A stretch of 64,000 bases of DNA, taken from assembly GCF_002727185.1 (NCBI RefSeq), contig NZ_NIZW01000006.1, positions 124,001 to 188,000 of the forward strand, written 5' to 3'. Under the pieces are notes generated by a model. It did no database searches, was not told the origin of the DNA, and was given only the letters and a program-made list of their open reading frames with translations. The DNA comes from Rhodopirellula bahusiensis. GTDB taxonomy: Bacteria; Planctomycetota; Planctomycetia; Pirellulales; Pirellulaceae. Below are positions 11,482 through 34,623 of this stretch, piece after piece (position 1 is the stretch's first letter; each line of letters starts with the position of its first letter). The position numbers and the translations under genes were made by a program.

Positions 11482-14400
11482 ATGACGCTTCGACGCTTTC
11501 AGACTTTGTTGGGCAACGCTGTTTCAGACGCCTCCTCGCCATCGGATGGACGAGCGAAGGGCCGCCAGCACTCCAAATCCCGCCGAGCCCGAAACGAGCG
11601 ACGAAGCAAATGGCAGACCGCTGACCGCCGCCTGAACCACGAAACCCTCGAAAAACGAGAACTACTCGCCGCGGAGTTGGGCCTGATCGCTCATCCGGTA
11701 TTCGCTCCTGGCACACCGAGCGAAACCATTGAGCAGTGGCATGAGGAGCACGGCGACAACCATGCCGCGATCACATCTGGCACAAAATTGCCAGGTTTTC
11801 AGTTTGGCCCTCAGCTTCAACCCATCCTTTTCAATCCAACGGACCCATTGCGTTGGCGCACCTCGGCACTGAATCCAAACGGGGCACCCAACTTAGGCGA
11901 CCCCATCACGCTGACCTGGAGCATCGTTCCCGATGGAACGCCGATGCTGGACCCCAACACGGGGAACACAACCGGCAACAGTGAACTGGTCTCGTTCCTT
12001 GACGGCGTCTACGGAAGCGGAGCGACCAACGAAATCACCGAGAAGCCCTGGTTCAATATCTTTGCCAACGTGTATGACGTTTGGTCACAGGGAACCGGGC
12101 TGAATTTTGTTTACGAAGACGACGACGATCAATCACCATGGGCAGGGGCGGCGAGCATCGGCGAAGCTGACGTGCGGGCCGATTTGCGGATTGCTGGCGC
12201 AGCGATCGACGGGAACTACAACGTTCTCGCCGCGAACTACCCACCGTATGGCTTCGGATCCAACGGGCTCGATGGTGACATGATCATCGACACTTCCGAC
12301 AGCTACTACTCGGACACAGCCAACTCTGCTTTCGATCTCAACATCGAATTGACAAACATTCTCGCTCACGAGATCGGCCACGGTCTGGGATTGGCTCACG
12401 TGATGCCAACCAATGGCACCAAACTGATGGAACCATTCATCAGTGCAAACTACTACGGTCCGCAAGAAGATGACATCTTCAACATCAATATGTTGTATGG
12501 CGACGCAATGGAGCCAAACGACTCCATCGCCAGTGCGGTCCATTTGGGGGTGCTTGACCTTGCTGCCCAGACCATCACCGATGTGTCGATTGACAGTCCC
12601 AACTCCGACGTGGATGTATTCGCATTCACACTGAACAACCCTACCGAAATCGATCTGGTTGTCACTCCAGTCGGAACGTCTTACGAGGAAGGCGAACAAG
12701 GTGGTGATCCTCCAGTCAGTGTTGACCGTCAGCGTCAGCAAGACTTGCAGTTCCGCTTGCTGGACGGAAATGGCAATGAAATTTCATTGTCGAACGACAA
12801 CACCTTGGGCAACGCAGAATTCCGCGCCAACGTTCAGTTGGCAGAAGGCTCTTATGCAATCGAAGTTTCGGCGTACTCGGGAACTGATTCGCAAGCCTAT
12901 CGGATGTCGGTGGGCAATTCGGCTCGAGTGTTGGTAGGACCAACCTTGCTCGCCATTCGCCCTGACGATTCGGGACTGCTCCAGAACGGCGACACCCTTG
13001 AGACCGCCCCCAACGAATTCAACCTGTTCTTCAACGGCGGGGCGGACCTAGACGAAGCCACGATCAACGCAGACACAGTCAAATTGGTTCGCGCTGGCGA
13101 AGACGGAATCTTTGGCCCCAACCCAGCCAACCTGGACGTCAACGGAAACCCAATCGACGACGATATCCAAGTCGAATTGGGATACGTTGGACTGCTGGAA
13201 TCGGGAAGCATCGAAGCCAGCAACCTGCAGCAGATCGTCTTGCGTCCAGCCAGCAGTGCAGCTCACAACGCGTTCGATCCGTCGTTTGGTTTCCCGGATG
13301 ACCTCTATAAAATCGTTCTGGTCGGCGAAGGCAACTCGCCTCTGCAAAGCCGCGCCGGAATTCCGTTTGACGGCGGCAACAACTTTGAAACAGCCTTTCG
13401 GCTCAACCGCGGGTCCCAGGTTGTCGCGGTCGTCCCCCAACCGATCGTTCGCTCAAACGCGACCCAAGCCAACCCCAAGGGCGTTCTCACACAACAATCT
13501 GATACCGTCGTCGTTCACTTCGACGGACAGTTGCTGGACGTTGGTGACGCAGAAAACCCCGCGTTTTATCGCCTAGTCGATACCCGCGCTACCGCGGACA
13601 AGTCGGACGACCAGCTTGCACCCTTGCAACCCAATCTGGCAACGTATGACGTGGCGGTCGGAACGGTCACGCTCCTGTTTTCCTCTCCCATCCCAGAGGG
13701 CAACTACCGCCTGGACATCGGGGAAGCAGGAACACCGGTTGGTGGATCACCTATCGTTCCAAGCTCAGCACTCACCAGCGACGATGACAACTCGACTCTC
13801 CTGACAGCCAGCGATCTGACTGGAACACCAGCGAGCCCCGTGACACTGGATGCATCTGGGGTCCGAATTTCCTCACAAATCCAGGTCCAATCTGTTCCGC
13901 TTGCTCAACGAGTTGGCAGCGAAGATGAACCAGGGCACCGTGAGATTCAGCGTGAACCACATGTCGGAAACAACGAAGGAGTCGGCCTGGAGCTTCCTTC
14001 GGCAATCAGCATTGTTCGCTATTACTTCCCCAGCACGCTGGGAACGGATACCAACGGACAAGACTACATCAACCTGATCACCGAAAAAGAAAAAGAGATT
14101 GTCCGCACTCTCTTTGATATTTACGCCAGTCTTTCAGGGTTTGAGTTCGTTGAAACATCTGAGACCACACCCGGTGCAGATCAACTGATGATTGGAAAGG
14201 GAGACTTCCGGGCAGTCTCCCCAGGACTCGGTCCAAACGATGGGGTTGCAGGCCTTGCCAACAACACCTTCGCGATTTTGAACGGCTCCATCTACAACCA
14301 ATCCAACCGATTCTTTGGCGATGGTTTCACAGAAACCATGATGCACGAGATTGGTCACTCCTTGGGCCTGAACCACTCTTATGACATCCCATCCGTTCAA

Positions 14401-17400
14401 GGCGCTGCCGTGCCAAACGACGTGTTGCCGGGTGATCATGATATCGTTCACCTGCAGCGGGTTTCCGCTCCCAATGCAACTGACATCGATCTTTACAAGT
14501 TTGCTGTTGGCGAGACAGGCAAATTCACTGCGGAAACCTTCGCCGAACGATTGTCGACTCCAAGCGGCCTGAGCACGGTCCTGACATTGTTCGCAGTCAA
14601 TGACGATGGAACGCTTGAAATCGTTGCTCGCAATGACCGCTACTTTGGCAACGACTCGTTCCTGAATGTGGAATTGGATGCAGGAACCTACCTGATCGGA
14701 GTCAGCAGCACCGACAACGAAGAATACAACCCGCTGGTCCCTGACTCTGGTTTTGGTGGAACAACGGACGGCTTGTATGAACTGGAATTGAAATTCCACG
14801 GGGAATCGGCATCGGTACTTCGAGATGTGGACGGCACTCCGATCGATGGTGATCGTGATGGAACGCCGGGTGGCGTGTTCTCCTTCTACTTCCAAGCCAG
14901 CGATGCCGACACCACTGTGTTCGTCGATCGGTTGAATGACCCGAACGCGGCAGCACTGGATGGCTCAGGCACTCTTGGAGACGCATTCGACAACATCGGC
15001 CAGGCGCTCCAGCGGGCAGGAGAACGACTTGTGTTCCCGACGGTGGGACTCGATACGCTAGACGCCACCGATACGTTTGAGGTCATTCAAACGATTGGTG
15101 GCACACCCGTGACCGAAAGCTTTGACTTCGGCCCTGGTGGAATCACCCTTGCCCCCGGTGGATCACCAGAGGATGCGGCCACTGCAGCTGCAAACGCGAT
15201 CAACTCCGTCCTTCCTGGCGTTGCGACCGTGGTCGGCCGAACCGTTGAATTGACCGGGATCGATCGTCTGGACCTGTCGGGATCGGACACGCTTCTGAAC
15301 ACTCCCAACCTGGTTCGGATCATCGGAAATGACGCCGACGGCGACCCGTCGACCACCGCGGATATCAAGCCCTATCTGATTGGGACGGCGACCAGCGGCG
15401 CAGCACTACGGGACGGGGCCGACTTCCGTGTCCCACAGGGCGTCACCGCGATGATCGACGCGGGTGCGTTGATCAAAATGCGCAAAGCCAATCTTGATGT
15501 TGGCTCTTCGTCGATTGACATCGATCGATCTGCCTCTGCCTTGCAGGTCCTGGGAACCCCCGACACACCGGTCTGGTTGCGATCCTATTTCGACAGCACA
15601 TTTGGTGGCAATTCAACGGGTTCTTCGGCAGCCAATCCACCGGCAGCAGGTGACTTTGGCGGCATCGTTCTGCGTGATGATTCCGATTTGGAATCCTCGG
15701 GAATGTTCCTGAACTACATCTCGCACTCTGACATTCGTCATGGTGGGGGCAAGGTATTCGTCGATTCTGCGGAGGCTTCCTTCAGCCCGATTCACATCAT
15801 CGACGCTCGGCCGACCATTGCGTTCAACCAAATCACCGACAGCAACAGTGCGGCGGTCTCAGCCAGCCCTGATAGTTTCGATGAATCAAATGGCCGCATC
15901 GGCCCTGAAATCGTCGGCAACTACCTGTCCGGCAATACGATCAATGGTTTGTTCATTCGAATTGAAACACAGGATGGCGAAGTCGTCACGAAGCTGACCA
16001 CACCAGGCCGCTTCAATGACACGGATATCGCACACGTGTTGACCGAAAATCTCGTGATCGCTGGCAACGTGGGTGGGCGTTATCTCGACAAAGTCACCGG
16101 CGAATTGACCGCTCGCGATTCCGGGCGTTTGCTGGTCGATCCAGGCATCGTGATCAAATCCTCGGGATCACGAATCGAAGCCGAGGCGGGAGGCTCAGCC
16201 CTCATCGCCGAAGGCACCCAGAATCGCCCTGTCATTTTCACGTCCATCAATGACGATCGATATGGCGGGAGCGGTGTCTATGACACGACGAACACGCCCA
16301 ATTCAGCAGGACAAGCAGGCGACTGGGGTGGCTTCTACTTTGGATACACCAGTTCTGGCAGCATTGACAACGCCATCATTTCCTACGGCGGTGGCGACTC
16401 GTCCATCGAAGGTGGATCCGCCAATTTCAATGTGATTGAAATTCATCAAGCGGAGGTCCGAATCACAAACTCGCTGATCAGTGACAACGCAGACGGAAAT
16501 GCGACCGGCGTTCGAAACGGCCGTGGCGCCAACGACGCTGCCACGATCTACGTTCGCGGTGCTCAGCCCATCATCATTGGCAACGAGATCGTCGATAACG
16601 CCGGCCCCGCAATCAACATCAATGCCAACTCGCTGCAGTTCTCCAACCAACCTGACTACGGGCGGAGCACCGGAAACCTGGACGTGTTCGCGGAATTTGA
16701 TGACAACGTCGGTCCTTTGGTTCGACTGAACCAGTTCGAAAACAACGGCATCAACGGAATGTTGGTGCGGGGCGAAGTCCTTACAACCGAGTCGATCTGG
16801 GACGACACCGACATCGTTCATGTCCTGCAAAACGAAATCACGGTGGGCAACCATCATTCCAACAGTGGGCTGACGCTGCGAAGCAGCGGCAGCGATTCGT
16901 TGGTTGTCAAGTTGTCAGGCAACAACGCTGGCTTCACGGCCACCGGCACACCTGCCGAAATCATTGACCGAATCGGGGGCACCGTGACCGTTTCCGGTTC
17001 ACCTGGCTTCCCCGTGATCTTGACCAGCCTGCAAGACGATTCGGTGGGTGCTGGCTTCACACCGAATGGTGCGTTCTTGTACGACACCGGAAACGATGGT
17101 CAGACAGGGGGGCAAAAGGGTGATTGGCGTGGTTTTGAGTTCGACGAATTCAGCAACGATCGAAATGTCGCCGTCGTTCGCGAACGCGAGACGCCCCTTA
17201 CGGCAGGCAAGGACGAAAATGCCTTCCCAGGTGTCGCCCAGTTCGTGGGCACGTTGGCCCCGGATCAGAAAAGCGGAGACGAGAATCGACGCCTCGGTTT
17301 TGAAGTCCAAGGGTTCATTAGCCCTGACTCTCCAAATGATCTGGACGTCTACAGTTTCGAGGGAACGGCGGGCACGCCGGTTTGGCTGGATATCGACCGA

Positions 17401-20400
17401 ACCGACACTTCTCTCGACACAGTCATTGAAGTTTTGAATGCGAATGGAACAGTCATCGCGCGTTCCCTTCGTTCCACCGACACCAATCTGCCCGGCACGC
17501 TGAATGCGTTGCCGCTGGAACAGAACCCGCTGCTGGGTGGTGATTTCAACTCGGAGAACTTCCGAGACGCCGGAATGCACTTTGTATTGCCAGGAACCCC
17601 GGACACCGTGGGGCGATACTTTGTGCGGATTCGTTCTCTCGGATCAACGCCGACATCTCTGGATGGAGTCAGCAGTGGCCAATACCACCTGCAAATCCGA
17701 TTGCAACAAGTCGATGAGTACCCTGGCAGTACGATTCAGTACGCCGACATGCGATACGCCACCACAGCCATCGACGTCAGTGGATTGCCTGCTCGCAGTC
17801 ACATCCTTGGTGAAGCGGGCGAAGTCCAGGCAGCGCCGAACAACACCTTCGCGCAGGCTCAACCGTTGCAAAGTCTGTTGCAAAGCGATATGGCAGCGAT
17901 CTCGATCTCAGGCAACCTGGGGACCGAGCAAGGCGTGACCAATCGCGACCTGGACGTCGACTGGTATCGCTTTGACGCGACTCAAACGGGCATCCAAGTG
18001 ATCAGCGGCGTCAACGACTCTGCCGGCACCGTGGCTGTCGTCTTTGACATGGACTACGCCGACAAGGCGAACCGTGGTGACACGACGCTCGCTGTTTATG
18101 ACGGCAATGGCCAGTTGATCTTCGTCGGTCGAGACTCCAACATCGCTGACGATCAGCCGGACACGATTGACTCGGACCCAGACATTGACGATCTGTCGCG
18201 TGGATCGCTCGGCACCAAGGACGGCTACATCGGCCCCGTCCATTTGACCACCGGTGGCGAGTACTACATCGCGATCATGGGCAACGGCGTCACACCAAGC
18301 GCCTTGATGGGACAATATGACAACCTCGGTCACTTCCTTCAGGACGACGATGGAGACGGAGTCGCGGATAGCGCGGTTCAATCCGAGTCGGGTGAGATTT
18401 TTGTCCCCGAAGGAAATGCGGACAACCGCTACGTTCGTCTGGAACCAATCAATTCCGTTGACCGAGTGGTGGAAGATCGCATTGGATTTTCTGGGTACAA
18501 CACGATCCCACTGGATCCATTTTTCCCAAATGGCATCAACATCCAACCACAAACGTCGATCTTCAACATCGACACGGCAGCGGATGTCGAATCCCACTTG
18601 CCAGCATTCACGCTCGAGAACGTGCCGCTGTACGTTGCCACTGACCGCCCGTTGCCCAATGCGGACGATCAACTCTACATCGCGGACGCCTACAACGGTG
18701 GGACGTACACACGGCCGGTGTCACCGAACAACTGGTCTGCCAACAACAATGACATCCAAGACATCACCATCCGCAGCGATGGCCGGATGTTCGGGTACCA
18801 ACGCCAGACCAACGTCGCTGACTCGGTCGGCCAATTGGTCGAGATCGATCCTGCGACCGGCGCGCTGACGGTCGTCAGCCAGGACAACATTCCGGGCGAG
18901 ACGCCGACGATCAACGCTCGGAATCTCAATGCAAATTTGACCGCCCCGGGCAATCGTTCCACCCTCAACGACCCTCGCCTGGAAGAATTCACCAACTCGG
19001 ATGAAGTCGATGCGTTGACATTTGAACGCACCGGCAACATCACCAGCGATCCAAGCTACGACCTCTACTATGTGGTTCGAGAATCAGACGCATCGTCGAA
19101 GCTTTATCGAGCCACTTCGGACGGGGACGCTTCCCCGGTTGCCGCCGCTGCGTCCGGTCCCAACACAGGCGCAAACGTCAAGTACGGCGTCATGGGCAAC
19201 ATCAATCTGCCAGGAGCGACCTATGCGACCGCGAATTTCCAGGTGTTCACCAACGGAAACAACGTCGCCCGGACCAACATTCGGATTCAATCCAATCAGC
19301 CTGGTGTGGACGGAGATTTCACGGTCAGCATCAGCCGTCCCAACAATGGCAACCAAGCCGGAATCGGCAACGTCAGTGTGGCAGGACGCACGATTACTGT
19401 GATCATCGGCACCGATGCCAACGGAACGGGAGGGCCAAGTGCGGCCGCGATCGTGAATGCAATCAACAACGATGCTGACGCTCGACAGATTGTGACCGCT
19501 TCCATCTATGGTGGAAACGCAAACAACAACGGGGATGGGAACGACGGCACAGCAGCGAATAACGTTGGCGCATTGAACTACACCGCCGGTACCGGGACAG
19601 CATTGGCGGGTCGCGTCACTGGGATTAGCTTCGACGATCCAGTCGAACCCACTCAGATGTACGGCGTCACCAATGCTGGTGAAATCATTGCCATCGACAA
19701 GAACTCGGGGGACGCCACCCTTCTGAACACCGTTATCGGAGCCGACTTCAGCGCTCTCGCACTCGGTCCTCAGTCGGTCGAGAACGGTGCGTATGCTGAC
19801 ATGCTGTTCGCAACCACGACCGGTGGTCGCTTGTACGCGTTTGACTTCAATGGCATCTTGCAAAACATCTTCGCGGGTGGAACAGATTCCGTTGTCTTCA
19901 ACGACATCGCACCTGCCAACGGTGACAACCCGGTCGGACTCGCGTTCAGCCCGTTGGATCTGAACCTTTGGCACCCCACCACTCGGCGCGCCAATGATGT
20001 CGGACACGGGATCAATGAAGCGCCCGACGGATCTCGGACGCCTGGCGACATTGATCAGACGTATGGCGAAGCCGGAGCCGTCGGTGGGGACCGGGAGTTC
20101 TCCCAAGCCAGCGGTGGTGCGAGTTTCTACTTCGGACTCGAAGAGTGGATTGCGCCCAACGATTTCGACAACACGACCCAGGGATACATCACCTACGATG
20201 GCCAGGAAAATGCCCAATTCGGGCTTTCCGAGAAACTGCATCGCGACCTGACCTCCAACCCTGCGGTCGTCAACACCTACGCATTGGCAGGCGGTGCCCA
20301 AGGCCAATTGGTTTCCAATTCGTTTAACCTCGATGGATCGGTGGCGGAAGACCGACCCACGCTTTATGTCAACTACTTCCTCGAAACAGAAAACCACCCG

Positions 20401-26400: not shown

Positions 26401-29400
26401 GGACGCATCACGTTCAACTTCGATGACATCAGTGCAGGCGGTGCCTACACCGGCGGTGTCTACTATCCGAACGTGGACTACAACGAAGAGAGCCCGTTCG
26501 CCGCCAACGAACAGTTCACTTACGTCGTCGAAGACTTCGGAATGACATCGATCCCGGGATCCCAGTTCATCAACGGCGGTGCGGCCGACGAAGTCGACTA
26601 CACCAACGATGGTGCGATGCCTCCAGTTGGACTGAACAATCGTTCGGTTCCACAAACGATGACGTTGACGACACGGGCAACGAACGATGTGCCTGAATTC
26701 CCAGTGTTCAACACGGTGACGTTTGCCGAAGACATCAACGACGCTGGCGACGCGTTCAACACGGTCTTCTACGACATCTACGGGGAAGCCGTCATCGCGT
26801 CGGCCGACCCGGCTGTCCACAACCTGCCGCAAGCTATCTTCGTCAGCCGGGCAACCGCCGAAGACGAGCGTGGCAACAGCAGCGGTGCTCCCACGACTCA
26901 GGCGCTGACCTACAGCTACACCACGCTGTATGAACCAGCCGGAATGTTCGAATCTGCTCCCGTCCTGGATGAGTACGGCGTTCTCACGCTGACTCCGCGG
27001 GCCGATGCTTACGGTTACGCCGTCTTCACAGTCACAATGACGGACGATGGGCAGTCCTACGATCCAGACACTGGCATGTTGGTCGACGACGCCCCCCCCG
27101 CCAGTGTCGCTCGAACCCTGACGGTACACATCACACCAGTCAACGATGCACCGGTCACGGTTGACCGCGCGTTGGAAGTTACTGAAGCCAAAGAATTCGC
27201 CAACGGATCCGGCCGCCCGACCGGTGACGTTGCCTCGATCGACCTCACTCCAGATCAATTCCTCGGTGGAACCACTGAGAATTCAGAACTGGCAGAACAA
27301 AGCGACTTCACCGATGACGTTGCCGCCGTCGATGAATTCGATGAAGAGGAACAAAGCCTCCGAGTCGTCGAGTTCACGGTCACGCTGGCCGATGGTTCCA
27401 CTGCAGTTGTCGACGCCGAAAACAACAACGGCGTCGAACTGACGCTGGCGACCGGACGCATCACGTTCAACTTCGATGACACCAGTGCAGGCGGTGCCTA
27501 CACCGGCGGTGTCTACTACCCCAACGTCGACTACAACGAGGAAAGCCCGTTCGCCGCCAACGAACAGTTCACCTACGTCGTCGAAGACTTTGGAACGACA
27601 TCGATCCCAGGATCGCAGTTCATCAACGGCGGTGCGGCCGACGAAGTCGACTACACAAACGATGGTACAATGCCTCCAGTTGGGCTGAACAATCGTTCGG
27701 TTCCACAAACGATGACGTTGACGACACGGGCAACGAACGATGTGCCTGAATTCCCAGTGTTCAACACGGTGACGTTTGCCGAAGACATCAACGACGCTGG
27801 CGACGCGTTCAACACGGTCTTCTACGACATCTACGGGGAAGCCGTCATCGCGTCGGCCGACCCGGCTGTCCACAACCTGCCGCAAGCTATCTTCGTCAGC
27901 CGGGCAACCGCCGAAGACGAGCGTGGCAACAGCAGCGGTGCTCCCACGACTCAGGCGCTGACCTACAGCTACACCACGCTGTATGAACCAGCCGGAATGT
28001 TCGAATCTGCTCCCGTCCTGGATGAGTACGGCGTTCTCACGCTGACTCCGCGGGCCGATGCTTACGGTTACGCCGTCTTCACAGTCACAATGACGGACGA
28101 TGGGCAGTCCTACGATCCAGACACTGGCATGTTGGTCGACGACGCCCCCCCCGCCAGTGTCGCTCGAACCCTGACGGTACACATCACACCAGTCAACGAT
28201 GCACCGGTCACGGTTGACCGCGCGTTGGAAGTTACTGAAGCCAAAGAATTCGCCAACGGATCCGGCCGCCCGACCGGTGACGTTGCCTCGATCGACCTCA
28301 CTCCAGATCAATTCCTCGGTGGAACCACTGAGAATTCAGAACTGGCAGAACAAAGCGACTTCACCGATGACGTTGCCGCCGTCGATGAATTCGATGAAGA
28401 GGAACAAAGCCTCCGAGTCGTCGAGTTCACGGTCACGCTGGCCGATGGTTCCACTGCAGTTGTCGACGCCGAAAACAACAACGGCGTCGAACTGACACTG
28501 GCGACCGGACGCATCACGTTCAACTTCGATGACATCAGTGCAGGCGGTGCTTACACAGGCGGCATCTACTATCCGAACGTGGACTACAACGAAGAAAGCC
28601 CGTTCGCCGCCAACGAACAGTTCACCTACGTCATCGAAGACTATGGAACGACTTCGATCCCAGGATCGCAGTTCATCAACGGCGGTGCGACCGACGAAGT
28701 CGACTACACCAACGATGGTGCGATGCCTCCAGTTGGGCTGAACAATCGTTCGGTTCCACAAACGATGACGTTGACGACACGGGCAACGAACGATGTGCCC
28801 GAGTTCCCAGTGTTCAACACGGTGACGTTCGTCGAAGATGTCAACGACACGGGTGCCTCCTTCAACACGGTCTTCTACGACGTCTACGCCGGTGGCTTGG
28901 TTGCGAACTACGACGCCGCCGACCCAATGCGTCCGCAAGCGATCTTCGTCAGCCGCGACACTGCGTTTGACGAGCGTGGCGACGGACTCGGGTTCGACCC
29001 GACTCAATCGCTGTCCTACACCTTTACGTCACTGGCTAGCTCATCGCCTTCGGGGATGTTTGAAACATTGCCAACGATGGATGACTTCGGTGTCCTCACG
29101 CTGACACCGCGGGCCGACGTATACGGCTGGGCGGTCTTCGAAGTCACCGCGACAGACGACGGTGCAAGCTACGACGCTGGTGCCGCAGGCCTGATCAGTT
29201 CGCCTCGCAGTATCACGCGAACGTTGACCATCAACATCACCCCGGTCAACGACGCTCCCGTGAGCTTCGACCGAGATCTGGAAGTCACTGAAGTGGAGGA
29301 GTTCTCCTCACCGAATGATCTCCCAACAGGCTCGGTCGCTCGCTTGCAAATTTTGCCAGAAGATTTCCTGGGCGGAACAACAGGCAATCCTGAACTCGCC

Positions 29401-32400
29401 AAAGCGAGCGACTTCTCCAATGACGTCGTCAGCTTTGAAGAATACGACGAAGACGAGCAAGACCTTCGTGTGGTCGAGTTCACCGTCACGCTGGACGACA
29501 ACTCTCTGCTAGTCGTCAACGCTGGCAACTACGTCAATGGAACACAAATCGGATTGCTCAGCGGTACGATCACATTCCAATTTGATTCGACGACCGGCGA
29601 ATTCCTCGAAGGCGAATACTTGCCGAGCATCGACGTCAACGACCAGCTGCCTTTCGAGCCAACAGAGGTCTTCCAATACGTTGTCGAGGACTTCGGTCCA
29701 ACTTCGATCCCTGGTAGCGATCGGCCAACACCGGATGCAACTGGATCGATCGATTACACCACCGTGGGCGGCGTCGGATCGAACAATCGTTCTCAGCCTC
29801 GCGACATGACTCTGACAGTACGTTCGGTCAACGATGTGCCTGAGTTCCCCGTCTTCGACACCGTCACGTTCGCCGAAGACATCAACGATGCCGGTGGTGC
29901 ATTCAACACCGTCTTCTATGACATCTACGGTGGAGAAGTCATCGGCAGCAACAACCCGTTGGTGCACGGCTTGCCTGAGGCTATTCATCCAGGGCGGGCT
30001 ACCGCGTTGGACGAACGTTCGGTTCAAGAACTGAGCTACAGCGTCAGCGTCATCTCGTCGCCATCGGGCATGTTCGCCAGTGATCCAATCTTGGATCGAT
30101 TTGGCGTGCTGCAATTGCAACCCAACGCGGACGCCTACGGCTACGCTGTGTTTGCTCTGACGATGACCGACGATGGTCAGTCTTACATCTCGGGTTCCAT
30201 CCAAGATGATCCACGCAGCATCACTCGAACGCTGACGGTCAACATCACTCCGGTCAACGATCAACCGGTCGCTTACGATCGCGAATTGACAGTCAACGAA
30301 GTCGAGGAGTACTTCCCAATCACTGGTCAACCAACCGGCAGGGTTGCCGTTCTCGACCTGACTCCAGAGACGTTCTTGGAAGGCAATCCAAGTGACGCTC
30401 AGACAGCAGACTTTGCCGATGGCGTCGTCACGACGAACGAGTTTGACGAAGACGAACAAGACCTCCGGGTCGTTCAGTTCACCGTCACCAATTCCAGTGG
30501 CACACCGACAGTCGTCAGCCGAGACAACCTGGACGGTATCGAGATTCCTCTCGCAACTGGCACGGTCACGTTCAACTTCGACGCCTCGGGCGCGTTCGTC
30601 AGTGGCCAATACTTGCCAAGTGTTGACTACAACCAAGAAGACCCGTTTTTGGACTTCGAGCGATTCAGCTACATCGTCGAAGATTTTGGAGCAACCTCGG
30701 TGCCGGGTTCCGATTACATCAACGGACAAATGGCTCCCCCGGTCGCTGGATTCCAACAAGCGGATTACACGACTGTTGGTGGTGTTGGATCGAACAACCG
30801 TTCGGAATCACGTCGTGTGACGATCCGAACTATCCAGGTCAACGATGCTCCTCGAGTTGAATTCCGTGAAACGGTTGACATTCGCGAACGCGACGACAAC
30901 CGTGGGACGAGTTTGACTGATTGGGCGACTCGACGAGATCCGGCCGAAACCACAGCGTTGGATGAATTCGATCGCCAAGACGTCTTCTTCACTTTCAAAG
31001 AATACGTCAGCCAGAGCGTCACCGATCTGTTCCGTCCCGGCTTCACTCCGGAAGTTTCTGATGACGGAACACTGACGGTCTACCCATCACCTGATGCGGT
31101 TGGAACGGGCGTGTTCGTCATAACAGCGACAGACCGAGTGTCGGACACCGATCCATTCACTCCGAAGTCGACCGAAATGACGGTCACAGTAAACGTTCGT
31201 CCGGTCAACGACCAACCTCGTTTGTCCGACATCGCACCGACACCAAAGACCGGGTCCATCGACGACGCTTATGAAATCGCTGCGGACGGCACCCTGATCG
31301 TCACGATGAAAGAGGACAACACTGCCAACGACGGAACCACTGGAACGACCTACTCGATTCCATTGGAAGCCGATGGTGCACGCCCAGGCTTGCTAGACAT
31401 CTACACCGCCGGGCCAGACAACGAATCGGATGGCACTCTCGGTGGCGGACAAACGGTTGCCTTGGTTCCGTTCACGACCCTGCCAACCACGCTGGGCGGA
31501 TCGGTGACCTACATTCCAGAGAACGGTACGACGCCGGCTTCGCTGGAATACACGCCACCGACCAACGTCAACTCGTTGAACAACCTGCCCGACTCGTTCA
31601 CCTACCAGGTGATTGATGACGGCACGAACTTCAACATTCGCGACCAAGTCCTGGACACGTCACCGCTGACACGCACAGGCCGCATTCAGTTTGTTCTGAA
31701 TCCGGTCAACGACCGTCCCGTATTTGACATTGCACAAACCGTGATCAATGTCAGCGAGGACGCGAATATGTTTGTCCGCAATGACTTTGCGTTCAACGTG
31801 TTCGGCGGACCAACACCGACCGCGAACGACGAGTTCAGCTTGACTGCGGCTCAGACCGTATCGTTCAATCGGATCGAACCCGTCAACGTGACTGGCACCC
31901 AGGCGACGCAAGCGTTCACGACGCTTCCGACCATCGTGCCTGCTGGCCACCTGACTTTCCAAGCCGCCCCGGGCGTGTTCGGCGAATTCGTGTTTGACAT
32001 TTATGGCCAAGACAACGGACAAGGCCCGAACTTCGGCCGTGGCGATTTGAATGAGTCCTTGGCTCGCCGAATCACCATCAACGTGCTCGCGGTCAACGAT
32101 GCACCTATCCCAGCCAATGGAACGGGTGACACGACCACGATCGTGAGCCGCGAAGACATCACGCTGAACATTCCAGTTGATGGTGTGATCAATGGTTCGT
32201 TGCTCGGCAACTTTATCGCTGGCCCTGAATCGCCAGTGGATGGGTTGCCGGACGAGAACGATTCGCAAACTTTGTCCGCGGTCAACGTGCCATTGCAAAC
32301 TGCGATGGGCGGTTCGTTGACACCATCGCCAAACGGTGCAGGTGCCACGTCTTACGTTTACACGCCACCATTGAACTTCGTTGGCACCGATCAGTTCGTC

Positions 32401-34623
32401 TATGAAGTCAGCGATGGCGACGCTTCGCGAACCACCATGGCAACGATTTCGTTGGTGGTGACTCCGGTCAACGACGCGCCGATCATTTCGCCACTGGCAC
32501 CAATCGTTGTCGAAGAAAGTGCTGGAACGGTCACCCTTCCCGATTGGCTCGGCACCGTCTTGGTCGGACCTCCCGGAACCGGCTCTGGTGGCCGTGCGGT
32601 GGACGAGTTCGACGGAACGGGAACCTCAGCCCCTCAGACAATCACTGAATATCGATTCTCCTATGTCAGTGGCGACGCCGATCTGCTCACCACCTCGGTT
32701 GGCAATCCAACTGGGTTGCAGATCCTGTCGGATGGATCGTTGCAGTTCATGACTTCGGACGAAAACAGTGGTTCGGCAACTTACGAATTGGTCGCCGTCG
32801 ACAGTGGCCCGAACAATCTTGCCAACGGAGACGTTTGGGAAAGCGATCCGGTTCAGTTCACTCTGACCGTCGCCGACGTGAACGACTTGCCAACCTTCAC
32901 CGCCGGTCCGGCCGTGACCGTGCTGGAAGATAGTGGCGCCTACTCACAGCCATGGGCGACGGATGTCTCCGCCGGCCCAGGCAACGAAGGCAATCAAACG
33001 GTTGCGTTCTTGGTCCAAGTACCGGCCGAAGATCAAGATTTGTTCACAGTGCTGCCATCGATCGACCCGAGCGGTGTGCTGACTTTCAGCGTAGCTCCCG
33101 ATGCGGCGGGCAGCACTGACGTCACCGTGACGTTGCAAGACTTCGACAATGGTGTCTTCGCTGGCAGTTCCCAGCCGGTCACTTTGTCGATCACGATCAC
33201 GGACCAGCCCGACCTTCCGGTCGCTGTGGATGACTCGTTCACCACCACCGAAGACGCAGTGCTGTTCTTCACGATCGAAGATTTGCTCGCCAACGACAGC
33301 GATCCTGACTTGAGCGACATCCTCAGCTTCGTGGAATTGCAAACCACGACAGCTTTGGGTGCGATCGTGAATGTCAATCAGACGACCGGCGAAATCTCTT
33401 ACACGCCGATGGGATCGGACACGATTCAGTCACTCCGTCCAGGTGAAACTGCAACGGACACGTTCGAGTACGGTCTGCAAGACGACAGTGGTGTGACCAG
33501 CGTCGTGACCGCGAATGTCACGCTGACCATTCAAGGTCGCAACGATGCACCGGTTGCTGTCGACGACCGCGTATTCATCGAGTCGGTTGGCACGACCGTG
33601 TTGGATCAAATGCGAGACCCGTTGTTCAATGATTCGGACATCGACGGAACGCTGGATCGCTCATCGCTGACGATTGTGGTCGAACCTCAGTTCGGAACGC
33701 TGTCCGACGATAACGGCGTGCTGACGTATTTGCCCGGACCTGACTTCGCTGGTGTGGACACGTTCACCTACACAATCGCGGATGACTTGGGCCAAGCCAG
33801 TGCTCAAGCCTCGGTTGAACTTCAGGGACGCCCAACGGCTTCGGACATCACCGCGGGAACATCCGTGGGACGCACCGGTGCGATCGACATCTCCGATAGT
33901 TTCAACACTGCGTTTGACCTGGACTTGTCGTCCATTCTGATCACGACCCAGCCAACCAACGGCAGTGCGGAAGTGGTCGATGGCATGATCATGTACACGC
34001 CAGACGACGGTTACGTCGGAGCGGATTTCTTGATCTTCACTGTCGCGGACGTCAACGGAAACCGCAGTGCACCGACTCGCATGAACCTCAACACGGTTCA
34101 AAGTCGTTTGCAGAACCCGGTCAGCTTCTCCGACGTCAACCGCAATGGCGAAGTCACCGCATTGGACGCATTGTTGGTCATCAACCGCTTGAATGAAGTC
34201 AGCGGCAACTCCGGTGGCGAGAACATTCCGGTCACTGACGATGACTTCGGAATCGGAACCAACGATGGCGTGAATGAGCAGTTCTACTACGACCAAAGTG
34301 GTGACGGCTTCATCTCGTCGTTGGATGCTCTGCGAGTGATCAACGAGATCAACGCACAAAGCCAATCTGGATTCGGCGAACCTGCCGGTGAAGCCACTGA
34401 CCTTCTGGTTGGCGACTTCAGTGCATCCGCTGGATTGGGTGCTTCAACCTCGATCGCTGCTGAATCGGTTGATTCAGCAACAACCAAGGTCGTCGGATCA
34501 GCTGCAGCCGGATCGGAAGTTGACTTGATTGATTTGATCGCCAACGAGCAGTCCAATCGTGAAAGCGATGATTCAGATTCTTTGGAATCGAATTTGGATG
34601 CCGCTGTGCGAGAATTGTTCTAG
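11482..34623 (+). CDS. Giant secreted multidomain protein (7,713 aa): two matrixin-like domains, PPC, beta-helix, GEVED, cadherin/Ig-like array, dockerin-like end
   Basis: One uninterrupted frame of 7,713 codons, roughly 0.8 MDa. The N-terminus is basic and holds the planctomycetal extracellular motif LEKRELLAAE (56-65) instead of a plain signal peptide. Approximate domains: metalloprotease 1 (140-325; HEIGHGLGLAH at 296-306, Met-turn KLMEP); PPC-like (343-478); Ig/Big-like (485-800); metalloprotease 2 (830-1000; HEIGHSLGLNH at 955-965, no Met-turn seen); PPC-like (1000-1110); right-handed beta-helix (1390-1880); two PPC-like (1900-2270); propeller-like (2280-2860); jelly-roll-like (2880-3110); second beta-helix (3240-3480); Big_5-like (3480-3660); GEVED-like (ends with VGGEVEDY at 4054-4061); cadherin/VCBS/Ig-like array (4070-7500, many PVNDAPV-type junctions); dockerin-like pair (DVNRNGEVTALDALLVINRL from 7551, DQSGDGFISSLDALRVINEI from 7604). 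No transmembrane helix was seen. Probably a cell-surface or matrix protein; function unknown. Confidence 0.9.
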   Translation: MTLRRFQTLLGNAVSDASSPSDGRAKGRQHSKSRRARNERRSKWQTADRRLNHETLEKRELLAAELGLIAHPVFAPGTPSETIEQWHEEHGDNHAAITSGTKLPGFQFGPQLQPILFNPTDPLRWRTSALNPNGAPNLGDPITLTWSIVPDGTPMLDPNTGNTTGNSELVSFLDGVYGSGATNEITEKPWFNIFANVYDVWSQGTGLNFVYEDDDDQSPWAGAASIGEADVRADLRIAGAAIDGNYNVLAANYPPYGFGSNGLDGDMIIDTSDSYYSDTANSAFDLNIELTNILAHEIGHGLGLAHVMPTNGTKLMEPFISANYYGPQEDDIFNINMLYGDAMEPNDSIASAVHLGVLDLAAQTITDVSIDSPNSDVDVFAFTLNNPTEIDLVVTPVGTSYEEGEQGGDPPVSVDRQRQQDLQFRLLDGNGNEISLSNDNTLGNAEFRANVQLAEGSYAIEVSAYSGTDSQAYRMSVGNSARVLVGPTLLAIRPDDSGLLQNGDTLETAPNEFNLFFNGGADLDEATINADTVKLVRAGEDGIFGPNPANLDVNGNPIDDDIQVELGYVGLLESGSIEASNLQQIVLRPASSAAHNAFDPSFGFPDDLYKIVLVGEGNSPLQSRAGIPFDGGNNFETAFRLNRGSQVVAVVPQPIVRSNATQANPKGVLTQQSDTVVVHFDGQLLDVGDAENPAFYRLVDTRATADKSDDQLAPLQPNLATYDVAVGTVTLLFSSPIPEGNYRLDIGEAGTPVGGSPIVPSSALTSDDDNSTLLTASDLTGTPASPVTLDASGVRISSQIQVQSVPLAQRVGSEDEPGHREIQREPHVGNNEGVGLELPSAISIVRYYFPSTLGTDTNGQDYINLITEKEKEIVRTLFDIYASLSGFEFVETSETTPGADQLMIGKGDFRAVSPGLGPNDGVAGLANNTFAILNGSIYNQSNRFFGDGFTETMMHEIGHSLGLNHSYDIPSVQGAAVPNDVLPGDHDIVHLQRVSAPNATDIDLYKFAVGETGKFTAETFAERLSTPSGLSTVLTLFAVNDDGTLEIVARNDRYFGNDSFLNVELDAGTYLIGVSSTDNEEYNPLVPDSGFGGTTDGLYELELKFHGESASVLRDVDGTPIDGDRDGTPGGVFSFYFQASDADTTVFVDRLNDPNAAALDGSGTLGDAFDNIGQALQRAGERLVFPTVGLDTLDATDTFEVIQTIGGTPVTESFDFGPGGITLAPGGSPEDAATAAANAINSVLPGVATVVGRTVELTGIDRLDLSGSDTLLNTPNLVRIIGNDADGDPSTTADIKPYLIGTATSGAALRDGADFRVPQGVTAMIDAGALIKMRKANLDVGSSSIDIDRSASALQVLGTPDTPVWLRSYFDSTFGGNSTGSSAANPPAAGDFGGIVLRDDSDLESSGMFLNYISHSDIRHGGGKVFVDSAEASFSPIHIIDARPTIAFNQITDSNSAAVSASPDSFDESNGRIGPEIVGNYLSGNTINGLFIRIETQDGEVVTKLTTPGRFNDTDIAHVLTENLVIAGNVGGRYLDKVTGELTARDSGRLLVDPGIVIKSSGSRIEAEAGGSALIAEGTQNRPVIFTSINDDRYGGSGVYDTTNTPNSAGQAGDWGGFYFGYTSSGSIDNAIISYGGGDSSIEGGSANFNVIEIHQAEVRITNSLISDNADGNATGVRNGRGANDAATIYVRGAQPIIIGNEIVDNAGPAININANSLQFSNQPDYGRSTGNLDVFAEFDDNVGPLVRLNQFENNGINGMLVRGEVLTTESIWDDTDIVHVLQNEITVGNHHSNSGLTLRSSGSDSLVVKLSGNNAGFTATGTPAEIIDRIGGTVTVSGSPGFPVILTSLQDDSVGAGFTPNGAFLYDTGNDGQTGGQKGDWRGFEFDEFSNDRNVAVVRERETPLTAGKDENAFPGVAQFVGTLAPDQKSGDENRRLGFEVQGFISPDSPNDLDVYSFEGTAGTPVWLDIDRTDTSLDTVIEVLNANGTVIARSLRSTDTNLPGTLNALPLEQNPLLGGDFNSENFRDAGMHFVLPGTPDTVGRYFVRIRSLGSTPTSLDGVSSGQYHLQIRLQQVDEYPGSTIQYADMRYATTAIDVSGLPARSHILGEAGEVQAAPNNTFAQAQPLQSLLQSDMAAISISGNLGTEQGVTNRDLDVDWYRFDATQTGIQVISGVNDSAGTVAVVFDMDYADKANRGDTTLAVYDGNGQLIFVGRDSNIADDQPDTIDSDPDIDDLSRGSLGTKDGYIGPVHLTTGGEYYIAIMGNGVTPSALMGQYDNLGHFLQDDDGDGVADSAVQSESGEIFVPEGNADNRYVRLEPINSVDRVVEDRIGFSGYNTIPLDPFFPNGINIQPQTSIFNIDTAADVESHLPAFTLENVPLYVATDRPLPNADDQLYIADAYNGGTYTRPVSPNNWSANNNDIQDITIRSDGRMFGYQRQTNVADSVGQLVEIDPATGALTVVSQDNIPGETPTINARNLNANLTAPGNRSTLNDPRLEEFTNSDEVDALTFERTGNITSDPSYDLYYVVRESDASSKLYRATSDGDASPVAAAASGPNTGANVKYGVMGNINLPGATYATANFQVFTNGNNVARTNIRIQSNQPGVDGDFTVSISRPNNGNQAGIGNVSVAGRTITVIIGTDANGTGGPSAAAIVNAINNDADARQIVTASIYGGNANNNGDGNDGTAANNVGALNYTAGTGTALAGRVTGISFDDPVEPTQMYGVTNAGEIIAIDKNSGDATLLNTVIGADFSALALGPQSVENGAYADMLFATTTGGRLYAFDFNGILQNIFAGGTDSVVFNDIAPANGDNPVGLAFSPLDLNLWHPTTRRANDVGHGINEAPDGSRTPGDIDQTYGEAGAVGGDREFSQASGGASFYFGLEEWIAPNDFDNTTQGYITYDGQENAQFGLSEKLHRDLTSNPAVVNTYALAGGAQGQLVSNSFNLDGSVAEDRPTLYVNYFLETENHPGETTANGQDPFRDAARVFVLRPSTGEWELVATNNSALSVADPSQNPTAELPGFISHLSDAGLNSTTPRDEDAQVVQELFDNTGTWRQARIDLSSFAGEVGLQLRFDFSTSGRIAGDGIPPAFGEISSDSRSNATLNNFFEGFYIDDIIVGYAERGEMVTVPNRVPTVEGALQGGTREINTDAGTSALLNDARFSNRDPNRNPEILSGPYQVEIRRVDEYATLAESNILPDFGFSFQPFDTNDRHILSEDGVSMFGGTTGLLADQNRERQQGMFIIDSNFISDSEDVGIDIQPGTAEETGVPHQGSLINFPQLNSPRLVPGVVIQNNVISGESAIRFAGETTTEAGRSVPFGRIVNNTLVGFGDGTGIDVIGQAAPTIINNILSEFGTAIDVEGFNATNTVVRKNYFQGNANNGTTGTNPELAGTNAPLFIDRSSRNYYLAAGSAAIDNSQETLADRLDFVTFKTELGIARSNIDAPQRDVFGQLRVDSGQSGGGSGADPFIDQGAIDRADTDAPYAVLLKPIDDDNAGLDRDPNPTVVSLDDPILDVFSILIGDGRDENSPFEGTGIDPATVDRDAILVRRNNIELVEGVDYQLGFNGSTGELRLTPLTTLWQPNGVYEIFLDNQRIADRAGNLLRPNQQDGSTKFTIILPTVNLDYGDAIDGFGTILDSDGARHAIIDGGQIRLGQIIDSELDAAVAGSPGAQDDDRLPVIITLGTSAFQTPVTTGGVSIMEAVQMPVLGDTLTIDIGSPRGPVTFEFVTVGRSAESGNLPVIFDDTLLTDPGEVLDQLNAFTSDVHDAIAEMFEDFGLAFDVEFTSGSAIAPTTQPSLSLTNFDDEDGVGIGSPNTEREITITPSDPASLVVATSPANPVVIDVQAIPASGDQVVIDLGTSAGSKTFEFLLVDPAATSQQASTSGTIAVRFEAADTVNDIAARLAARIDQALAGFGTNFSATFAGSLVTLENQATTQTVFVDSLTDPNSVSIGVLGYLNPNNPNGASILVNAPNGGFLDAWIDWDQNQLFDPRDSSEDGGEQIFRSIPLSAGDNILNIVTPTTASSGLAWARFRISPEGGLSSDGLAVGGEVEDYQVEIIPAPIPTPQDDRYDILEDQSLLTAEMGLSSVLFGPTVAADDLLTPFAPTTVVLMDGPSHAENFSIDPLTGHFQYVPKADFAGIDTFTYRLADQATLVDNPVLDINGDPIGVATVTINVDPVNDVPSVENLTLLALEDTERTFTAEQLKASAFGDGDREFTLTLPDGSTQPAPWDESIQSFDVVALHTTVGGLTTDITSATTVPVDGFKTPRGRIIPIWDGTVLDEIRYLADTDLNQDNPNGDSLLRDEFQFTIEDDGVLVNPGADLVNSSDDTSFIGGKLTAQATAQIDVKPKNDAPVAAEDLISENNAEWNAFFIGPDPLNPVAPVPVPTEDQTLVIPQAYLIANDKEARDSATDENDNTNDAGLTVTAVSATSALGGTVSIDTNGDIVYTPALNTYGEDSFTYTVTDSGITFDLGPEGMPGSMLEEPDPLSHTATVRILIKPVNDTPQADDLALDLLEYQEDEDGTGEANPVSKSDGSGFKDFSKDDLLRLGGAGSAVEVTPPVDFPADFDEDAQDLRVIKIGLPDATAASVDARLLTYDAVTGLAPVQTLATARGTLSLTFSLVPDPANPGNFLADSGEFVSGSYEPNVDYNEESPFDATDLFTYFVEDFSEIPVPGAGNFPGESLNSVGHGSLTSEAATVTMTTHATNDTPEFPVFNTVTFAEDINDAGDTFNTVFYDIYGEAVIASADPAVHNLPQAIFVSRATAEDERGNSSGAPATQSLTYSYSTLYEPVGMFESAPVLDEYGVLTLTPRANAYGYAVFTVTMTDDGQSYDPGTGMLVDDVPPLSVTRTLTVHITPVNDAPVTFDRELEVQEIEEFDDVTGQPSGVDPARIELTPDDFLVGADGPLASAEQSDFTDDVDAVDEFDEEEQSLRVVEFTVTLADGSTAVADAENNNGVELTLATGRITFNFDDISAGGAYTGGVYYPNVDYNEESPFAANEQFTYVVEDFGMTSIPGSQFINGGAADEVDYTNDGAMPPVGLNNRSVPQTMTLTTRATNDVPEFPVFNTVTFAEDINDAGDAFNTVFYDIYGEAVIASADPAVHNLPQAIFVSRATAEDERGNSSGAPTTQALTYSYTTLYEPAGMFESAPVLDEYGVLTLTPRADAYGYAVFTVTMTDDGQSYDPDTGMLVDDAPPASVARTLTVHITPVNDAPVTVDRALEVTEAKEFANGSGRPTGDVASIDLTPDQFLGGTTENSELAEQSDFTDDVAAVDEFDEEEQSLRVVEFTVTLADGSTAVVDAENNNGVELTLATGRITFNFDDTSAGGAYTGGVYYPNVDYNEESPFAANEQFTYVVEDFGTTSIPGSQFINGGAADEVDYTNDGTMPPVGLNNRSVPQTMTLTTRATNDVPEFPVFNTVTFAEDINDAGDAFNTVFYDIYGEAVIASADPAVHNLPQAIFVSRATAEDERGNSSGAPTTQALTYSYTTLYEPAGMFESAPVLDEYGVLTLTPRADAYGYAVFTVTMTDDGQSYDPDTGMLVDDAPPASVARTLTVHITPVNDAPVTVDRALEVTEAKEFANGSGRPTGDVASIDLTPDQFLGGTTENSELAEQSDFTDDVAAVDEFDEEEQSLRVVEFTVTLADGSTAVVDAENNNGVELTLATGRITFNFDDISAGGAYTGGIYYPNVDYNEESPFAANEQFTYVIEDYGTTSIPGSQFINGGATDEVDYTNDGAMPPVGLNNRSVPQTMTLTTRATNDVPEFPVFNTVTFVEDVNDTGASFNTVFYDVYAGGLVANYDAADPMRPQAIFVSRDTAFDERGDGLGFDPTQSLSYTFTSLASSSPSGMFETLPTMDDFGVLTLTPRADVYGWAVFEVTATDDGASYDAGAAGLISSPRSITRTLTINITPVNDAPVSFDRDLEVTEVEEFSSPNDLPTGSVARLQILPEDFLGGTTGNPELAKASDFSNDVVSFEEYDEDEQDLRVVEFTVTLDDNSLLVVNAGNYVNGTQIGLLSGTITFQFDSTTGEFLEGEYLPSIDVNDQLPFEPTEVFQYVVEDFGPTSIPGSDRPTPDATGSIDYTTVGGVGSNNRSQPRDMTLTVRSVNDVPEFPVFDTVTFAEDINDAGGAFNTVFYDIYGGEVIGSNNPLVHGLPEAIHPGRATALDERSVQELSYSVSVISSPSGMFASDPILDRFGVLQLQPNADAYGYAVFALTMTDDGQSYISGSIQDDPRSITRTLTVNITPVNDQPVAYDRELTVNEVEEYFPITGQPTGRVAVLDLTPETFLEGNPSDAQTADFADGVVTTNEFDEDEQDLRVVQFTVTNSSGTPTVVSRDNLDGIEIPLATGTVTFNFDASGAFVSGQYLPSVDYNQEDPFLDFERFSYIVEDFGATSVPGSDYINGQMAPPVAGFQQADYTTVGGVGSNNRSESRRVTIRTIQVNDAPRVEFRETVDIRERDDNRGTSLTDWATRRDPAETTALDEFDRQDVFFTFKEYVSQSVTDLFRPGFTPEVSDDGTLTVYPSPDAVGTGVFVITATDRVSDTDPFTPKSTEMTVTVNVRPVNDQPRLSDIAPTPKTGSIDDAYEIAADGTLIVTMKEDNTANDGTTGTTYSIPLEADGARPGLLDIYTAGPDNESDGTLGGGQTVALVPFTTLPTTLGGSVTYIPENGTTPASLEYTPPTNVNSLNNLPDSFTYQVIDDGTNFNIRDQVLDTSPLTRTGRIQFVLNPVNDRPVFDIAQTVINVSEDANMFVRNDFAFNVFGGPTPTANDEFSLTAAQTVSFNRIEPVNVTGTQATQAFTTLPTIVPAGHLTFQAAPGVFGEFVFDIYGQDNGQGPNFGRGDLNESLARRITINVLAVNDAPIPANGTGDTTTIVSREDITLNIPVDGVINGSLLGNFIAGPESPVDGLPDENDSQTLSAVNVPLQTAMGGSLTPSPNGAGATSYVYTPPLNFVGTDQFVYEVSDGDASRTTMATISLVVTPVNDAPIISPLAPIVVEESAGTVTLPDWLGTVLVGPPGTGSGGRAVDEFDGTGTSAPQTITEYRFSYVSGDADLLTTSVGNPTGLQILSDGSLQFMTSDENSGSATYELVAVDSGPNNLANGDVWESDPVQFTLTVADVNDLPTFTAGPAVTVLEDSGAYSQPWATDVSAGPGNEGNQTVAFLVQVPAEDQDLFTVLPSIDPSGVLTFSVAPDAAGSTDVTVTLQDFDNGVFAGSSQPVTLSITITDQPDLPVAVDDSFTTTEDAVLFFTIEDLLANDSDPDLSDILSFVELQTTTALGAIVNVNQTTGEISYTPMGSDTIQSLRPGETATDTFEYGLQDDSGVTSVVTANVTLTIQGRNDAPVAVDDRVFIESVGTTVLDQMRDPLFNDSDIDGTLDRSSLTIVVEPQFGTLSDDNGVLTYLPGPDFAGVDTFTYTIADDLGQASAQASVELQGRPTASDITAGTSVGRTGAIDISDSFNTAFDLDLSSILITTQPTNGSAEVVDGMIMYTPDDGYVGADFLIFTVADVNGNRSAPTRMNLNTVQSRLQNPVSFSDVNRNGEVTALDALLVINRLNEVSGNSGGENIPVTDDDFGIGTNDGVNEQFYYDQSGDGFISSLDALRVINEINAQSQSGFGEPAGEATDLLVGDFSASAGLGASTSIAAESVDSATTKVVGSAAAGSEVDLIDLIANEQSNRESDDSDSLESNLDAAVRELF
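25621..30835 (+). repeat. Tandem array of about five ~1,050-base cadherin/Ig-like units in the giant gene
   Basis: Units begin at about 25621, 26677, 27730, 28783 and 29827, each opening with NDxPEFPVFxTVTFxED(I/V)ND and ending with a shared ...NNRSxPxxMTLTxRxxND junction. Spacing is about 1056, 1053, 1053, 1044 and 1008 bases. Each unit (~350 residues) contains FNTVFYD(I/V)Y, GMFES-type, YGYAVFxxTMTDDG, TRTLTVxITPVNDxPV and DEDEQDLRVVEFTVT-type blocks, so it is probably two to three Ig-like domains repeated as a block. Units 2 and 3 are nearly identical; units 1, 4 and 5 have diverged. Confidence 0.92.
26632..28496 (+). repeat. Recent in-frame duplication: about 812 identical bases at 1,053-base offset
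   Basis: 26632-27443 and 27685-28496 match without a difference in my base-by-base reading, synonymous sites included. Mismatches appear on both sides (for example the C before AAC in CACCAAC/CACAAAC upstream, and G to A at 27444/28497). The offset of 1,053 is exactly 351 codons, so the frame is kept. Identity at silent sites points to very recent unequal crossover or gene conversion. Confidence 0.9.

Follow-up and report, generated by a model that had tools for sequence, protein, structure and literature searches.

Species comparisons indicate that the head of a giant Rhodopirellula gene was exchanged as one block

Catalogues of giant genes in planctomycetes go back years, but no function has come with them. 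One of them lies in the stretch of DNA analysed here, 64,000 nucleotides of Rhodopirellula bahusiensis (RefSeq assembly GCF_002727185.1, contig NZ_NIZW01000006.1, positions 124,001 to 188,000; hereafter the window), on contig 6 of a 7.78-Mb genome that is labelled G000 in the comparisons below. At the level of sequence, comparison with other genomes of the genus demonstrates that residues 65-4184 of the encoded protein moved between Rhodopirellula species as one block, while the N-terminal part and the stalk, like the genes next to them, keep broadly to the species relationships. This exchange between species is invisible to the reader of a single sequence, and it is the unusual feature of the gene. 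The protein is laid out as a 64-residue N-terminal part, a 4,120-residue head and a 3,529-residue stalk:

11482..34623, + strand: giant gene of 7,713 codons (orthologues, purifying selection)
11482..11673, + strand: N-terminal part, residues 1-64, ending in LEKRELLAA (PF07595), where the head's upstream junction falls
11674..24033, + strand: exchangeable head, residues 65-4184 (species comparisons, junctions)
24034..34620, + strand: stalk, residues 4185-7713, a cadherin-like/Big_9 array with a dockerin and a C-terminal tail (Pfam, species comparison)

The heads found at this locus fall into classes: class A in G000, G002, G006 and G009, class B in G004 and G011, and class C in G001, G003, G005, G007, G008 and G012. 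Over a beta-helix domain within the head the three classes are mutually 57-63% identical, and class A is up to 66% identical to the best heads of other genera. G010 has a fourth class of head, preceded by the same signal motif; its longest match to class C is about 31% identical and a shorter one 46-48%. Between the giant and its G004 counterpart, protein identity is about 43-59% in windows of residues 601-4200 and 79-96% beyond. Synonymous divergence (dS) departs from that of the flanking genes in both directions. G004 and G006 are sisters in a tree of the adjacent gspG-K genes, with a dS of 0.37 in the flank and 0.43 in the stalk; their heads are saturated and 51% identical. In G004 and G011, dS is 1.46 in the flank, 1.21 in the stalk and 0.57 in the head, where identity is 93%, and in G000 and G002 the values are 0.98, 0.91 and 0.30, with 97% head identity. 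(The dS pairs come from six genomes and then five, G009 being left out of the second set as its contig stops within the stalk; contig ends also truncate G003 and G008.) The trees conflict in the same way: the gspG-K tree is (((G004,G006),G000),(G002,G009)),G011, and the head tree sets (G004,G011) against (G006,(G000,G002,G009)). In approximately unbiased (AU) tests the head rejects a G004+G006 grouping (p 6.4e-8) and the gspG-K flank rejects G004+G011 (p 9.3e-54). G001 is a long branch in the flank tree, and the head tree carries a program warning of long branches for classes A and B; the dS comparison is independent of both trees, so this caveat does not touch it.

The borders of the exchanged block can be placed by comparing G004 with G006. 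Upstream, their DNA is near-identical through the LEKRELLAA codons and unrelated after them, so that the junction is sharp to the nucleotide; downstream, at VNDVPSVENL, identity rises in a step from about 72-76% to 97-100%. Heads measure 4,105-4,120 residues in class A and 3,586-3,603 in class B, and complete stalks 3,514-3,529 residues (five genomes). The block thus spans from the end of the signal to the linker. A further feature lies inside it: dS between the giant and G002 is 0.2-1.5 elsewhere in the gene and 0.02-0.10 at residues 2101-3600, a tract of about 4.5 kb (17782-22281) that is near-identical to G002, with dS far below that of the remaining head. We read this tract as the mark of a later exchange that took place within the head block.

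A rival account sees an ordinary giant surface protein: ancient paralogues, hidden and then sorted out by loss, would supply the head classes, and gene conversion would have homogenised the ends. The genome does hold paralogous giants with related heads, and the heads of classes A, B and C differ from one another as much as heads of other genera do. However, the heads occupy the same locus between orthologous ends, and a head dS far below that of the flank in G000/G002 and in G004/G011 needs a recent transfer. Nor was a silent, near-identical second head copy found in G000 among the matches listed (closest non-self match 48%, of 8), although weaker copies exist. Hidden paralogy is thus quite improbable. 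A silent copy within the genome was also considered as a donor and rejected, the only non-self G000 match among those listed being the one at 48% identity.

An assembly or binning chimera is scarcely credible as the source of the mosaic. Near-identical tandem units in the stalk can mislead short-read assembly, and the contigs of three relatives end inside the gene; yet two independent assemblies share class B (G011 and the single-contig G004), four share class A (G000, G002, G006, G009), and the frames are open across both junctions. The gene itself is confirmed as an earlier note, written from this sequence alone, had described it, one 23-kb frame without an internal stop: positions 11482-34623 on the + strand hold 7,713 codons, and the sole stop is terminal. 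An open run of this length has a chance of about 10^-125, calculated from the base composition of the window. The syntenic gene is open from stop to stop in G002 (7,732 codons), G004 (7,236), G011 (7,226) and G007 (6,590), of which G002 and G004 are single-contig genomes and G011 and G007 carry the gene on contigs of 2.5 and 2.7 Mb; because of this, a frameshift or an assembly artefact is an unlikely origin of the frame. In a codon comparison with G002, the ratio of nonsynonymous to synonymous divergence (dN/dS) is 0.093 for the whole gene and stays under 0.16 in each of 26 windows, which demonstrates an intact gene under purifying selection along its length. On the chance figure, the open orthologous frames and dN/dS, a chance frame or a frameshift was rejected, the latter being what the earlier note had thought could undo its reading. 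The 7,713 residues of the giant include no cysteine, and the frames of 11 relatives hold 0-6.

A second giant of the same genome, of 7,575 residues on contig 4, served as a control. Its orthologues measure 7,526-7,576 residues in the genomes compared, the dS of both halves is about 0.7-1.3 of the flank value in nine of ten pairs, and the identities of the halves are 84-97%, without a class switch, across five genomes. The comparison set for class switching is thus the head locus plus one control giant, and uniqueness of the head locus in the genome is not claimed. The control forms a tandem pair with a giant of 6,163 residues (contig 4, 224719-265926), and both vary little in length across the five genomes searched. 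Dockerin matches in the genome number 25, counted as 22 frames; the planctomycete signal Planc_extracel is present at E <= 0.1 in 18 of these 22 (joined by hand via contig and frame length). In four of the 18 (G000 contigs 1, 2, 14 and 43) the dockerin is N-terminal, directly behind the signal. Besides the gene in the window, which has more than 5,000 residues, an LExRxLLA/PF07595 N-terminus and a C-terminal dockerin and so belongs among the dockerin-ended giants, five others were read in the genome, of 6,163, 7,575, 6,067, 4,576 and 3,788 residues; a pattern search found no metzincin motif in these five. Giants of this kind are already known in planctomycetes, and what is new is the exchangeable head, its fixed junctions and the near-constant length of the stalk. 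The earlier note had singled out the combination of modules as unusual, a claim that is weakly founded: similar giants occur in the same genome, in the family and in published work. As a main point it was set aside, since the modules are common in the family and already in print (PMC11573180).

The module content itself was largely foreseen in the earlier note, which did not mention the near-identical 351-residue tandem units, the divergent type II secretion genes or the head exchange. The planctomycete origin it proposed agrees with the host genus, and the Pfam search that it called for matched matrixin/reprolysin, GEVED, Cadherin_4/5, Big_9 and Dockerin_1 domains. The predicted LExRxLLA-type N-terminus is borne out by Planc_extracel (PF07595): the protein piece reaches 23.6 bits, short of the cut-off of 25.5, and the whole-genome search gives 30.6 bits, above the cut-off. 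The cadherin-like array was recovered by Pfam (Cadherin_4/5, Big_9) and the dockerin end by PF00404 (43.6 bits); the two proteases appear as metzincin-like domains with zinc motifs at residues 296 and 955, and structure prediction returned the expected beta-helix with a predicted local distance difference test (pLDDT) score of 89.8. Prediction in pieces, which the note had also suggested, worked for the beta-helix and gave low confidence (pLDDT 65.2) for residues 2290-3160. The domains of the head are as follows:

12028..12501, + strand: metzincin 1, residues 183-340, with HEIGHGLGLAH at 296 and a Met in KLMEP (PF00413, 70.4 bits)
14245..14379, + strand: metzincin 2 core, residues 922-966, with HEIGHSLGLNH at 955 (PF13582, 33.1 bits)
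15310..17109, + strand: right-handed beta-helix domain, residues 1277-1876 (AlphaFold2, pLDDT 89.8)
18349..20961, + strand: probable beta-propeller and following domains, residues 2290-3160 (low-confidence model, pLDDT 65.2)
23428..23667, + strand: GEVED domain, residues 3983-4062 (PF20009, 49.8 bits)

The head also holds one cadherin-like module, the first, recognised by eye. Within the genus, metzincin 1 is present in head class A and was not seen in classes B and C. Residues 795-1190 match the collagenase MMP-1 (1fbl) at E 6.9e-5. The zinc motif HExxHxxGxxH is present at both residue 296 and residue 955, with D for G in the G001 and G008 orthologues; at least one HExxHxx[G/D]xxH motif occurs in 12 of 12 genes (the giant and 11 orthologues), and two in all four class A genes. 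The beta-helix spans 600 residues with a mean column identity of 64% over 17 sequences. A collection of genome contigs yielded 355 related stretches, of which 80 were kept, and of 149 genomes sampled in the family, 118 have homologues, frequently within frames of 5,000-11,000 residues; several of the relatives that were read also carry one or two HExxH motifs. A fold search gave nothing at E <= 0.001 (the best match, at 5.0e-3, is a PL6 alginate lyase, with low template-modelling (TM) scores), and only the general beta-helix fold is claimed because these matches are weak. The profile had 0 matches among PDB sequences, no NCBIfam model matches the domain, and the generic Pfam Beta_helix model touches 16 of 55 members. 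The domain is a planctomycete family, spread through the bacterial family, to which no specific Pfam or NCBIfam model corresponds. For residues 2290-3160, Foldseek returned propeller matches (best E 6.4e-6, low TM-scores), so that the propeller identity of this low-confidence model is only suggestive.

The stalk carries three further features that can be placed:

25627..28788, + strand: three near-identical 351-residue tandem units, u1-u3 (coordinates for u1-u3), then two diverged units (anchor comparison)
34132..34353, + strand: type I dockerin, residues 7551-7624 (PF00404, 43.6 bits)
34519..34620, + strand: conserved C-terminal tail, VDLIDLIANEQ...LDAAVRELF (by eye, 9 genes)

The tandem units were measured by anchors; the strict anchor pattern overlooked units in several relatives. 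Units u2 and u3 match one another at 98% identity and the comparably placed units of G002, G004 and G006 at 87-91%, a sign of concerted evolution. The dockerin shows two calcium-loop-like repeats by eye. Behind it, a tail of an LIA..Q stretch, an acidic linker and a terminal LDAA..LF is similar in nine genes (the giant and eight orthologues) and could possibly be a sorting tag. The contig-4 giant of 7,575 residues ends similarly, in VDAAMAKLL. One known type of exchangeable protein was considered and rejected: a polymorphic toxin would have an exchangeable C-terminal toxin with an immunity gene, and here the C-terminal end is conserved and the downstream gene is PIG-L deacetylase-like.

Cohesins of G000 come to three matches, all on contig 1 (C1:16784-19947), where a BBP7 porin adjoins a group of two small cohesin proteins and a cohesin/cadherin protein of 1,997 residues. 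This larger protein has a Planc_extracel signal and 12 cadherin domains, its porin neighbour is a beta-barrel, and its cohesin scores 49.5-51.4 bits when the N-terminal part is scanned alone. The cluster is a candidate anchor for the genome's dockerin proteins. Cohesins occur in 12 of 13 genus genomes and in five of 27 other relatives. They allow a different account of the gene, in which the giant is part of a cohesin/dockerin "planctosome" that degrades polypeptides and would bring proteases to a scaffold. Metzincins and a dockerin are joined on one chain, cohesins are encoded in the same genome (one of them in the 1,997-residue cadherin protein), and such a model has been proposed for other planctomycetes (PMC6461901). 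The account is nonetheless somewhat doubtful: the published model has separate peptidases on adaptor and anchor proteins, not a 7,713-residue chain, and heads of classes B and C lack metzincin 1.

The other side of the gene is occupied by genes for type II pseudopilins, in an operon that is divergent to the giant, lies about 0.5 kb away and heads towards nusA; pigL-like and metG genes lie 3' of the giant, the gene directly downstream matching PIG-L deacetylase in Pfam. The operon comprises:

10255..10956, - strand: gspG-like major pseudopilin, start codon uncertain (PF08334, 66.8 bits)
9518..10249, - strand: gspH-like pseudopilin (PF12019, 24.2 bits)
9003..9521, - strand: gspI-like pseudopilin (N_methyl, 26.1 bits; T2SSI, 14.2 bits, below cut-off)
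7916..9094, - strand: pseudopilin in the gspJ position, named by position (N_methyl, 21.3 bits)
6127..7932, - strand: gspK-like gene (PF21687, 70.7 bits)
4492..6111, - strand: PilM/GspL-like gene, weak (PilM_2, 15.3 bits, below cut-off)

It ends with a 467-codon gene (3092-4495) that has no Pfam match over the cut-off and is present in eight of the 12 genus genomes compared. The gspG gene was found in 13 of 13 genus genomes, and a giant frame divergently adjoins it in all 12 that are testable (G000 and G001-G011; the gspG contig of G012 is 3.5 kb). Eight relatives have this frame complete, at 6,590-10,012 codons from stop to stop; in the three whose contig ends inside it, it reaches at least 4,175, 4,535 and 4,919 codons. 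G001, G003, G005, G007, G008 and G010 keep the pair, although the stretches fetched from them showed no nusA, pigL or metG. This linkage is suggestive as a genus trait and is no proof of function.

Putting these observations together, the giant is probably secreted or surface-exposed, and a surface, matrix or adhesion role, as first suggested, fits. It is fairly probable, though well short of certain, that one secreted chain acts as a spear, its exchangeable head carried on a fixed-length stalk and the whole docked on cohesins of the genus. The head would be replaced by homologous recombination between conserved arms, and diversifying or frequency-dependent selection on an extracellular contact (a substrate, partner, phage or predator) could keep the exchange going. 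The stalk may be a calcium-dependent spacer that holds the head off the cell, the metzincins would cut proteins at the contact site, and the C-terminal dockerin would dock on the genus's own cohesin proteins. For the outer-membrane step of export, the neighbouring type II pseudopilins are a candidate. A bolder extension is more tentative: the DNA of the LExRxLLA signal and of the VNDxP linker might double as homology arms, so that the 12-kb head is swapped in one step, leaving export signal, stalk and anchor unchanged, and old classes pass between species as trans-species alleles, with phages, predators or partners exerting frequency-dependent selection. The dS of the 64-codon N-terminal part is below flank dS in 10 of 10 species pairs, which are non-independent and rest on a short stretch; this is in line with signal DNA acting as an arm, and constraint at the start of translation could alternatively cause it.

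Several observations weigh against the reading of the giant as a docked spear with an exchangeable head. First, the exchange is not clean in every comparison. The downstream junction is less abrupt than the upstream one, and the stalk tree (five rows) joins G000 with G002 (100/99), whereas the flank tree joins G000 with G004+G006 (99/98). The control giant also departs from its flank in one pair, G004/G006, in which dS is 0.82 in the N-terminal half, 0.35 in the C-terminal half and 0.37 in the flank, and it has a variable stretch at residues 2501-3500 (70-83% identity in three pairs). Second, a methionine, in KLMEP, follows zinc motif 1 but no Met-turn is visible by eye after motif 2 in this protein, so that metzincin 2 may be weak or inactive, and G001 has a dockerin-like giant end (by eye) with no cohesin match. 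Third, the link to the pseudopilins has limits. Only gspG-H-I(-J), without gspK, was found beside the giant in G003, G008 and G010 (the G003 and G008 contigs end on the giant side). Outside the genus, a giant stood beside gspG at none of 14 gspG-like loci, which had no frame above 2,434 codons; three of these stretches are just 5.5-6.7 kb long, and most matches are below 50% identity and may belong to another gspG lineage. Likewise, gspG adjoined a head homologue in none of 14 genomes with a gspG-like match (on another contig in eight and on the same contig in six), the nearest non-adjacent case being G113, within about 35 kb. Finally, the N-terminus of the giant is basic, and by hydropathy its first 120 residues have no Sec-like hydrophobic core (best 15-residue mean 1.68), which makes it a poor fit to a type II substrate.

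The last of these points bear equally on another proposal, in which the linkage is functional, the giant is the dedicated substrate of the adjacent type II system and a pseudopilus pushes it out. Divergent adjacency in every testable genus genome speaks for it, as does survival of the pair in the six genomes that showed no nusA, pigL or metG alongside. The lack of adjacency at the loci outside the genus and of a Sec-like core speaks against it, and the operon's own ATPase and secretin partners were not located: the secretin loci examined yielded just one other locus, with T2SSE and a secretin. A dedicated substrate is therefore unlikely. That second secretion locus lies on contig 11 and also holds a weak gspG-like gene. 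Within the spear reading, export is the weakest part of the mechanism.

If the head is traded as a unit, it would be the head that is under outside selection, with the remainder serving as delivery. The domain borders are clean enough for pieces to be expressed, and the genus is culturable, which allows heads to be compared for attachment, phage sensitivity and protein degradation. Among the titles and abstract openings listed in searches of open-licence papers, none reported head exchange in planctomycete giants. The nearest published analogue, as far as the accessible portions of the papers go, is Giant1-5 of Apilactobacillus kunkeei: surface proteins of 3,000-8,000 residues with a beta-solenoid near the N-terminus in Giant1-4, for which sequence exchange between two genera was inferred from the beta-solenoid, together with intragenic recombination and uneven dS profiles (PMC12863079). 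They resemble the protein described here in size, N-terminal beta-solenoid, recombination and uneven dS. They differ in belonging to a lactic acid bacterium, in having alpha-helical or beta-sheet repeats and in that giant1-3 diversify mostly by short tracts, in contrast to one 12.4-kb block with fixed junctions here; proteases, a dockerin and an LExRxLLA signal are not mentioned in that portion of the text.

Closer relatives by phylum share other traits, again by the parts of each source that were available. Giant genes and huge proteins of planctomycetes (PMC5177795, PMC11573180) are alike in size, phylum and Dockerin_1, Big_9 and Cadherin_4/5 content; those reports give occurrence and domains, and in the same parts no head exchange, operon linkage or constant-length stalk. 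A transcriptome paper on R. baltica names another giant gene, RB11769 (PMC2754498). The planctosome (PMC6461901) is likewise a planctomycete cohesin/dockerin arrangement with metallopeptidases, but it consists of several separate proteins in a Nemodlikiaceae lineage, and the cohesin partners of the giant are putative. CshA-like fibrillar adhesins (PMC10952558) also place GEVED before stalk domains; they differ in signal and anchor, and no CshA-type ligand-binding domain is among the Pfam matches of the giant. Finally, polymorphic toxins and contact-dependent growth inhibition (CDI) systems (PMC3482391, PMC6336857) likewise combine a constant carrier with an exchangeable end. They vary a C-terminal toxin, whereas the giant, with no toxin domain among its Pfam matches, swaps its N-terminal half.

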